Source of the DNA: an uncultured SAR86 cluster bacterium
GTDB taxonomy: Bacteria > Pseudomonadota > Gammaproteobacteria > Magnimaribacterales > D2472
Assembly: GCA_902518715.1 (NCBI GenBank)
Contig: CABYHU010000005.1
Span: forward strand, 1 to 63,857
Length of the DNA stretch: 63,857 nucleotides
Direction: 5' to 3'
Notes under the pieces: model-generated
Databases searched by the model: none
Told to the model about the DNA's origin: nothing
What the model saw: only the letters and a program-made list of their open reading frames with translations
Translations under genes and position numbers: made by a program
In this document: positions 55,144 to 56,489 of the stretch, piece by piece
How positions within the stretch are numbered: position 1 is the stretch's first letter
How the letters are laid out: the number at the start of each line of letters is the position of its first letter

Positions 55144-55172
55144 TTGACTACTGTATAAATATACAGTATATT
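55144..55172 (+). promoter_or_regulatory. SOS promoter: TTGACT-17-TATATT
   Basis: A well-formed sigma-70 promoter (-35 TTGACT 55144-55149; -10 TATATT 55167-55172). The -10 lies six bases before the ATG of the 70-residue ORF, predicting a leaderless transcript. The LexA box fills the spacer. Confidence 0.75.
55149..55168. promoter_or_regulatory. LexA (SOS) box
   Basis: TACTGTATAAATATACAGTA differs at a single position from the enterobacterial LexA consensus (CTGT-N8-ACAG core with perfect flanks). It spans the spacer and touches both the -35 and -10, so LexA binding would block RNA polymerase. Confidence 0.85.
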
Positions 55173-55178
55173 TGAAAT

Positions 55179-55391
55179 ATGAGTAATGTAATAAATATAA
55201 ATTTTCAAGATACTATTATTTCTCAATGGGAAGAAGCTGTTGATAAGGAGTCAGCTGAAAAGACTCTTGCTTTTAAATACTTCAATGGAAACAAAGAAGA
55301 TCTGAACAACTACTTATTCCCAAGGGATGGGGTAGCAGCAGCTAAAAATACTTTCTGTTTTTCAAATTGCCAACAACTAGAATTATTATAA
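55179..55391 (+). CDS. Small SOS-controlled protein with C-terminal clamp-binding-like motif, function unknown
   Basis: A 70-residue predicted protein. It is largely helical and polar (QDTIISQWEEAVDKESAEKTL), followed by FNGNKEDLNNYLFPRDGVAAAK and a cysteine-bearing tail ending QQLELL. The last residues fit the bacterial sliding-clamp-binding pentapeptide (QL[S/D]LF and variants such as QMSLL). No homologue is known to me. Expression would be under LexA control from the promoter overlapping the box. There is no Shine-Dalgarno sequence, so translation would be from a leaderless mRNA. It could be a damage-induced regulator of replication or division; this is inference. Confidence 0.65.
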   Translation: MSNVININFQDTIISQWEEAVDKESAEKTLAFKYFNGNKEDLNNYLFPRDGVAAAKNTFCFSNCQQLELL

Positions 55392-55433: not shown

Positions 55434-55623
55434 TGGATGTCGCTGTATCGCGGTTAATATGGGGGCCGCTTTATAGTATTTAATATTACCCTCACAAGGA
55501 GGTGGTCCTATCAATATTTTATTTAATTCAGGAATCGGAGGTTCAGCTTTTTGACAGAAGTTAGTTTCTGATTTCGTCTGATTATATTCAGATTTAGCCC
55601 TCTTTTTTAAGAGGGCTTTTTTT
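55434..55623 (+). ncRNA. Putative structured small RNA of about 190 nt, no family recognised
   Basis: The region between the 70-residue ORF and the EamA gene has a dedicated promoter and ends in a strong intrinsic terminator, with no convincing ORF inside. Local inverted repeats occur: GCGG/CCGC near 55450-55470, CAGAA-GTTAGT-TTCTG (about 55555-55570) and TCTGA-TTATAT-TCAGA (about 55577-55592). Two GGAGGT sequences lie in the middle. I could not match it to tmRNA, RNase P RNA, SRP RNA or 6S RNA. A cis-acting leader for the EamA gene is an alternative but would need read-through of the terminator. Confidence 0.55.
55596..55623 (+). terminator. Rho-independent terminator of the putative small RNA
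   Basis: AGCCCTCTT / AAGAGGGCT stem with TTTT loop and six T residues, ending eight bases before the EamA ATG. Confidence 0.92.
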
Positions 55624-55631
55624 AATTTATT

Positions 55632-56489
55632 ATGGAAAACAAATACTGGATTCTGATCACTATCCTTGGAGCTGTGTGGGGTAGTGCCTTTATGTTTATA
55701 AAAATTGCAACACCTGAATTAGGTCCAATTGCACTTGTGAATATAAGACTTGCTGTTGCAGGTCTTATATTTATTCCTTTTCTGCTTCAAAAAAAATACT
55801 TAAAGCATTTAAGAAGCAATATAAAAAATATTTTAGTTCTTAGTGTTGTTAATACTGCTTTACCTTTTTCTCTTTTTGCATATGCATCCCTTGAATCAAG
55901 TTCAAATATGTTATCGATTCTCAATGGAACAACTGCGATTATGGCTGTTGTAATCTCCACAATCTGGTTAAAAGTAAAGCTAAATCTTTTTCAGATAACG
56001 GGAGTATTTATTGGCTTGTTTGGAATTGTAGTTTTAGCAAACCCCGATAATGTTTATATTTCTACTAAGGCAACTATCTTTTGTTTAAGTGCAGCATTTT
56101 GTTATGCATTATCTGCAAACTATATTCAGAAATTTGCCTATAAGACAAATACAGTAGTTTTAATAGGTTGGTCTTTAGTGTTAGCATCATTTTTTCTACT
56201 TCCACTGACCCTATTCAATTTGCCTGAAAAATTCCCATCAAATAATGTAATTTTTTCAATTCTTTGGCTTGGTGTAATTTCAACAGGAATTGCTTTTCTT
56301 GGTTACGTGAGATTGATTGAGAAGGTTGGCGCAGTAAAAACTGCAACTGTTGCATATTTTATACCTATCTTTGGAGTAATCTGGGGTTATGTTTTTCTTG
56401 GCGAGCCAATTACATTACAAATTTTAATAGGTATGATGTTAATACTTACAGGAATAATTTTTACTAACAAAAGATATGACCAATATTAA
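55632..56489 (+). CDS. EamA/DMT family transporter
   Basis: A 285-residue inner-membrane protein of about ten helices in two EamA repeats (GAVWGSAFMFIKIATPELGPI at the start; GVISTGIAFLGYVRLIEKVGA and YFIPIFGVIWGYVFLGEPIT in the second half). These are drug/metabolite exporters with unpredictable substrates. The ATG lies eight bases behind a terminator with no Shine-Dalgarno sequence, so its own transcription start is unclear. It overlaps the rhodanese gene by 14 bases. Confidence 0.9.
   Translation: MENKYWILITILGAVWGSAFMFIKIATPELGPIALVNIRLAVAGLIFIPFLLQKKYLKHLRSNIKNILVLSVVNTALPFSLFAYASLESSSNMLSILNGTTAIMAVVISTIWLKVKLNLFQITGVFIGLFGIVVLANPDNVYISTKATIFCLSAAFCYALSANYIQKFAYKTNTVVLIGWSLVLASFFLLPLTLFNLPEKFPSNNVIFSILWLGVISTGIAFLGYVRLIEKVGAVKTATVAYFIPIFGVIWGYVFLGEPITLQILIGMMLILTGIIFTNKRYDQY

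Follow-up and report, generated by a model that had tools for sequence, protein, structure and literature searches.

A previously unnamed SAR86 microprotein with a putative LexA box and a sliding-clamp-like C-terminal motif

We describe a previously unnamed microprotein of ocean bacteria for which, judged from the DNA in front of its gene, LexA control appears likely. The gene, of 70 codons and a stop codon, lies at positions 55179–55391 of the window, i.e., the stretch of 63,857 nucleotides analyzed here, which is one whole contig of a 24-contig, 1.06-Mb SAR86 genome. We think it rather probable that the product is a LexA-controlled adaptor that docks on the sliding clamp and also competes for it, with LexA binding, induction and clamp binding all predicted from conserved sequence features.

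The microprotein gene and its distribution

All features described here lie on the forward strand. The initial annotation had placed a 19/20 LexA box inside a TTGACT-17-TATATT promoter, with six bases between the −10 element and the start of a 70-codon ORF that ends in QLELL, and re-extraction of the sequence confirmed each of these points. The −35 element TTGACT (55144–55149) was read directly and re-extracted by coordinate; it is followed, after a 17-base spacer, by the −10 element TATATT (55167–55172). The LexA box TACTGTATAAATATACAGTA (55149–55168) matches TACTGTATATATATACAGTA at 19 of 20 positions with its core CTGT-N8-ACAG intact. The six bases TGAAAT separate the end of the −10 element from the ATG (55179–55181), and the stop codon is found at 55389–55391.

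From its sequence conservation we conclude that the microprotein ORF is a real gene. Five congeners gave a pooled pN/pS of 0.113, and their differences by codon position, summed over 10 pairs, were 65/43/239; these values rule out a non-coding or chance ORF. A single-sequence search of 61 genomes returned 26 loci at E < 1e-5, among them the one in the window. In 199 genomes of the order, a profile search detected the gene in 67 of the 103 sampled genomes of family f1 (E < 1e-14; our own count). Both conservation in relatives and a purifying pN/pS, which the initial annotation had named as checks on its ORF, were hence found. Among f1 genomes at least 90% complete, the gene was present in 15 of 19, one (G033) having a broken frame; G156 (E 0.09) was not counted as a member. 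The 36 f1 genomes in which no member was found include three at 90% completeness or above in which the locus was not found. Nineteen of the 36 were checked, and 18 of these, three of them at least 90% complete, also lacked a close copy of the EamA-family transporter gene that lies downstream in the window (55632–56489); in one gene-less genome (G012) the contig ends just upstream of EamA. None of the 19 keeps the locus while having lost the microprotein alone, where assembly gaps are possible.

A scan of named genome contigs with one peptide pattern, which finds only members carrying that pattern, returned 37 related loci, 32 of them titled SAR86, four generically proteobacterial and one Flavobacteriales. 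This last contig (L066, NYWQ01000094.1) carries a SAR86-type copy, at 52% to the window protein over residues 1–46, and is probably a binning error. A wider family was rejected: of 369 genomes of the class, the A3 profile matched three. Two of these were the window's own and one family member; in the third, G379 (E 0.005), the locus lacks a LexA box. No convincing relative outside the order was found in these 369 genomes. A viral origin was likewise rejected, as none of 71 pattern matches in viral contigs was a relative. In Pfam, PHROGs, NCBIfam and PADLOC, the window protein matched none of the families, which bears out the earlier impression of a protein outside known families; 24 A1 members scanned in the same databases gave scattered weak matches in one or two (best E 0.001, PADLOC).

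LexA boxes in SAR86 genomes

The profile search gave 77 distinct ORFs, of which three were dropped: L133 (E 1.4e-3) and L135 (E 1.4e-2), both boxless fragments, and the second fragment of the broken L124 copy. The truncated L011 and the broken L124 were retained among the f1 members. All 74 distinct ORFs in the resulting table (68 from f1, six from the sister family f4) carry a LexA box with an intact CTGT-N8-ACAG core; as a box was required for entry, this figure rests on finding no stronger boxless member. Two f4 proteins (L201, L232) were added later, giving eight in f4 compared with six in the table, and some loci (L103, L125, L131) contain unread bases. In 67 of the 68 f1 members the box ends 2–31 bases before the assigned ATG, and in L024 it overlaps the ATG; in all six tabulated f4 ORFs, the final base of the box is already part of the ATG.

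Two promoter layouts were found among the 68 f1 members, with eight rows assigned by our own reading of the sequences. In 41 members, the box lies within the −35/−10 spacer and the −10 element ends 5–9 bases before the ATG, so that a leaderless mRNA is predicted; in 25 members, the promoter lies upstream and the box follows the −10 element, a layout for which it is not predicted, and two members show neither. The leaderless mRNA of the initial annotation is thus predicted for 41 of 68 f1 members, the window gene among them, and does not extend to about 25 others. As the box is kept in both layouts, selection would seem to maintain repression rather than leaderlessness.

The strict pattern TACTGTA-N6-TACAGTA occurs three times in the 1.06-Mb genome of the window, the reversed control pattern not at all. 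Across the order, 190 of 199 genomes contain one to four strict sites each, most f1 genomes two to four; the reversed control was absent from all but six of the 199 genomes, with one site in each of the six. In the window's genome, the other two strict boxes precede umuDC and recA (L035, L036; named by reading translations), the latter at 11 bases, and lexA is present (over the family cut-off) with a one-mismatch box upstream. Downstream genes, again named by reading, were umuD, recA or lexA at all 30 loci examined in f3; umuD, recA, lexA or, in 10 loci, a different small protein at 30 loci in f2; and umuD, lexA or the f4 homolog at 20 loci in f4. The best explanation of these sites is that the microprotein gene belongs to the SAR86 LexA regulon together with recA, lexA and umuDC, from which we infer LexA binding and induction by damage.

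Further boxes were observed in other contexts. In f4, a strict LexA box at L233 (G092) lies 25 bases before a long ORF that, by reading only, resembles a UvrD/Rep helicase. At f2 and f4 loci L170, L182, L192, L203 and others, the box TACTGTAATTATATACAGTA is situated between a divergent lexA and an ORF of about 290 amino acids; this ORF contains IGITSRALFDLD or a similar sequence and may also answer to LexA.

Protein architecture, sister family and gene neighborhood

The protein comprises a conserved core (residues 11–47, 55209–55319) with predicted helices at residues 12–19, 23–34 and 39–46, a fast-evolving, predicted disordered linker (residues 48–64, 55320–55370) and the clamp-binding-like motif QLELL (residues 66–70, 55374–55388). 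Among the five congeners, pN/pS was 0.047 for the core, 0.259 for the linker and 0 for the tail (residues 65–70), where 18 synonymous and no nonsynonymous differences were summed over pairs. This pattern suggests a domain followed by a linker and a linear motif. AlphaFold gave the window protein a mean pLDDT of 63.7, with 71–80 by ten-residue block over residues 11–50 and low confidence for linker and tail; for a SAR86E member it predicted the same helices at a mean pLDDT of 70.9 (78–92 by block over residues 11–50). The core is hence predicted to be a three-helix mini-domain. Searched against the PDB, the two models had no Foldseek match below E 0.001, and a second structure search reached a best Z of 2.6; no reliable structural relative emerged. 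A UBA-like fold, or a likeness to the theta subunit of Pol III, is conceivable.

As the initial annotation proposed, the window protein ends in a pentapeptide that fits the clamp-binding motif, and a clamp-type tail, Q[LMP][EA][LMF], was found near the end of 66 of the 68 distinct f1 proteins, in nine genera. The motif is missing from L011, which retains box and core and terminates after the latter, and from L124, whose frame is broken. The 66 tails comprise 17 QPELLH, 14 QLEFSF, five each of QLELL and QPELI, four each of QLAMF, QMEFSF and QLEFTF, three QLELFS, two each of QPELFSENRCS, QLELPFN, QLEFAF and QLEFRF, and one each of QPELSF and QLEFLF; 36 fit Q..[LM][FLI] and 30 fit Q..[LF].[FL]. 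None of 446 distinct background tails, taken from open frames no shorter than 150 codons on either strand, some of which are not genes, contained Q[LMP][EA][LMF], and 14 contained a looser Q-led motif. Shuffling the last 24 residues of the members produced the motif in 0.27 of 66 tails on average and in no more than three. The 66 tailed members are related and do not represent 66 independent events, but the motif persists next to a linker that varies freely.

The window's genome encodes DnaN, which aligns to solved clamps over residues 1–365 of 367 and in which the segments TDAHRL, FPNYEQVLP and YVVMP are kept apart from single changes; we take these segments to line the peptide-binding cleft. 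The UmuC of the same genome carries QNSLF, presumably in the region of its known clamp motif. The clamp-binding consensus is given as QL[S/D]LF or QxxLF, with QLSLPL as a tight E. coli binder, in one paper (PMC12309361), and the motif is called variable in a review (PMC9690074). Glu occupies position 3 of the tail in 62 of 66 proteins, where the consensus has Ser or Asp, and 25 of 66 have a Pro at position 2, which makes the affinity for the clamp uncertain. The conserved motif of beta-clamp-binding proteins was thus found in relaxed form only, in 66 of 68 f1 proteins and in a region of low pLDDT. With UmuC/Pol V, Pol IV, Hda and MutS the microprotein shares a short motif that opens with Gln, has hydrophobic residues at positions 4 and 5 (or 4 and 6) and is set in a flexible stretch; with umuDC it shares an SOS-type control as predicted from the box. 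It differs from these polymerases, Hda and MutS in having a helical core of about 37 residues and no polymerase, ATPase or repair domain, and in the Glu at position 3 of most members.

In family f4, eight of 21 genomes encode proteins of 49–56 residues behind TACTGTATACTTATACAGTA. Comparison of the f4 and f1 profiles (hhalign) gave a probability of 91 and an E of 1.1e-6 over 39 columns of the core. The EamA gene, which stands outside our proposed mechanism, ties the f1 and f4 loci as a syntenic neighbor: it was found downstream in six of six f4 loci tested, 27–30% identical to the window's, and in 66 of 74 loci overall, at 69–403 bases. A structured RNA element is located between the microprotein gene and EamA in seven of eight f4 genomes. 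Because of the core profile match, the downstream EamA and the RNA element in between, we take the f4 and f1 proteins as orthologs. Only one of the eight f4 proteins has a QxxLF end (L128, ...QKDLF), and the others have no clamp-like tail. The co-conservation of box and tail that the initial annotation had put forward therefore holds in f1 (box in 68 of 68, tail in 66 of 68) and fails in f4, which keeps box, core and gene order mostly without the tail. Clamp docking is hence not the whole shared function; either f1 acquired the tail or most of f4 lost it, and both histories leave the core with a separate task.

The RNA element itself, of about 124 nt (55435–55559), which in the window too lies between these two genes, is preceded by a promoter-like and followed by a terminator-like sequence. 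It occurs in one copy each in 130 of 199 genomes of the order, in 34 of 40 near-complete genomes and in 21 of 22 genera. No Rfam family matched at gathering score; there were 17 weaker Rfam matches around the element (best E 0.007), many of which reach over the terminator. It contains a hairpin whose two arms, as judged by eye, vary in concert across 25 folded sequences, and it carries AAGGAGGTG[GA]TCC, which we take to be close to the complement of the 16S rRNA 3′ end. It is a candidate for an unrecognised SAR86 RNA. Transcription in the same LexA unit was ruled out, since the RNA has other neighbors in 10 of 10 f2/f3 loci, where the 900 bases upstream contain no LexA-like box. Within the RNA, a 14-codon frame with an AUU start was also ruled out as coding by codon-position differences of 143/193/68; this frame showed 51 synonymous compared with 307 nonsynonymous codon changes.

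A proposed role in the SOS response

In the mechanism that we propose, LexA positioned over the core promoter would keep the gene off. After damage, RecA-stimulated cleavage of LexA would give rise to the mRNA, probably leaderless in the window's genome, and to a soluble protein of about 70 residues. Its tail would dock on the clamp and its core would be presented to another fork protein. Tethered in this way, the adaptor would compete for the cleft against Pol III and the clamp's other clients, and polymerase exchange would be tuned, or the fork slowed, during SOS. We favor an adaptor over a mere plug because the core is strongly constrained and more widely distributed than the tail. Competition for the cleft would follow even for an adaptor. 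On a bolder reading, which we regard as possible and would place well short of even chances, part of SAR86 would possess an SOS replication checkpoint of its own, in which a dedicated LexA-controlled microprotein docks on the clamp and brings a helical mini-domain to the stalled fork.

The f4 proteins raise another explanation, in which the function common to both families resides in the core, which might for example bind RecA, LexA, UmuD or some division protein; the tail would then be an accessory added later in f1, or would fit some other pocket. Core and box are indeed common to f4, where seven of eight proteins end otherwise than in QxxLF, and L011 of f1 has lost only the tail. However, f1 keeps the tail across nine genera and five congeners show no nonsynonymous difference in it, and the tail could be an ancestral feature that most of f4 no longer has; this explanation seems unlikely to us. 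The conserved C-terminus could also be a degron by which a protease removes a SulA-like inhibitor of growth or division on recovery, much as the C-terminal end of SulA itself serves as a signal for proteolysis. Inhibitors of this small, damage-induced type are common, and replacement of SulA is conceivable because the SulA model TIGR00623, a narrow one that matched only E. coli among 14 controls, found no match in 61 of 61 genomes, G000 included. Yet it is the Gln and the hydrophobic positions of the motif that are conserved, whereas the residues after it vary from none to H, S, N or SENRCS, i.e., up to six, which is ill-suited to a strict terminal degron. Moreover, no single transmembrane segment was found, the highest 19-residue Kyte-Doolittle mean being 0.46 in the window protein and 0.75 among all tabulated members. 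We consider such an inhibitor quite improbable.

A toxin that blocks the clamp and stops replication outright, like SocB of Caulobacter or RipA of Streptococcus pneumoniae, has a parallel in that both are small proteins acting on the hydrophobic pocket of the clamp. By published description, SocB binds the clamp cleft via a clamp-binding motif (PMC9690074) and resistance to RipA maps to the same pocket (PMC12795458). Both belong to toxin-antitoxin pairs, and SocB is reported to induce SOS (PMC9690074, PMC12795458), whereas the microprotein gene itself carries a LexA box. Among the conserved neighbors, i.e., a VOC-family gene, the RNA element and the EamA gene, none resembling an antitoxin gene was seen, and the microprotein, apparently LexA-controlled, is passed on vertically in a single order. 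We hold a toxin of this kind to be highly improbable, and retain the clamp-docking adaptor as our preferred reading.

Compared by description, SulA, SidA, YneA and SosA resemble the microprotein as small, lineage-specific proteins under damage control; it differs from them in its clamp-type tail and the lack of a membrane segment, and SulA had no match in the genomes searched. In f2, 10 of 30 loci (L173, L175, L178, L180, L181, L183, L190, L191, L196 and L198) have a LexA-box gene whose start codon takes in the final base of the box. It encodes an unrelated protein of 61–62 amino acids with a hydrophobic C-terminal segment (hydropathy 2.19), and the one copy scanned matched no Pfam family. This membrane protein is a candidate SidA/YneA-like SOS inhibitor; since f2 has it instead of the microprotein, SAR86 families may use different small SOS effectors.

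In the literature searched (most subscription journals and bioRxiv lay outside the search), no paper joined SAR86 with 'SOS response', SAR86 and LexA occurred together only in a Novosphingobium study, and LexA, SOS response, small protein and clamp-binding motif never occurred all together. The small SOS effectors known to us act on division, membranes or RecA/LexA. If the bolder reading is true, a dedicated clamp-docking SOS microprotein would be a kind of effector not described in the literature searched, in a lineage where SulA was not found. SAR86 bacteria are abundant in the surface ocean, and as the window's genome contains no more than three strict LexA boxes, the microprotein would be among the few damage-specific genes kept. 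An SOS effector on the clamp would place replication itself under a further point of control.
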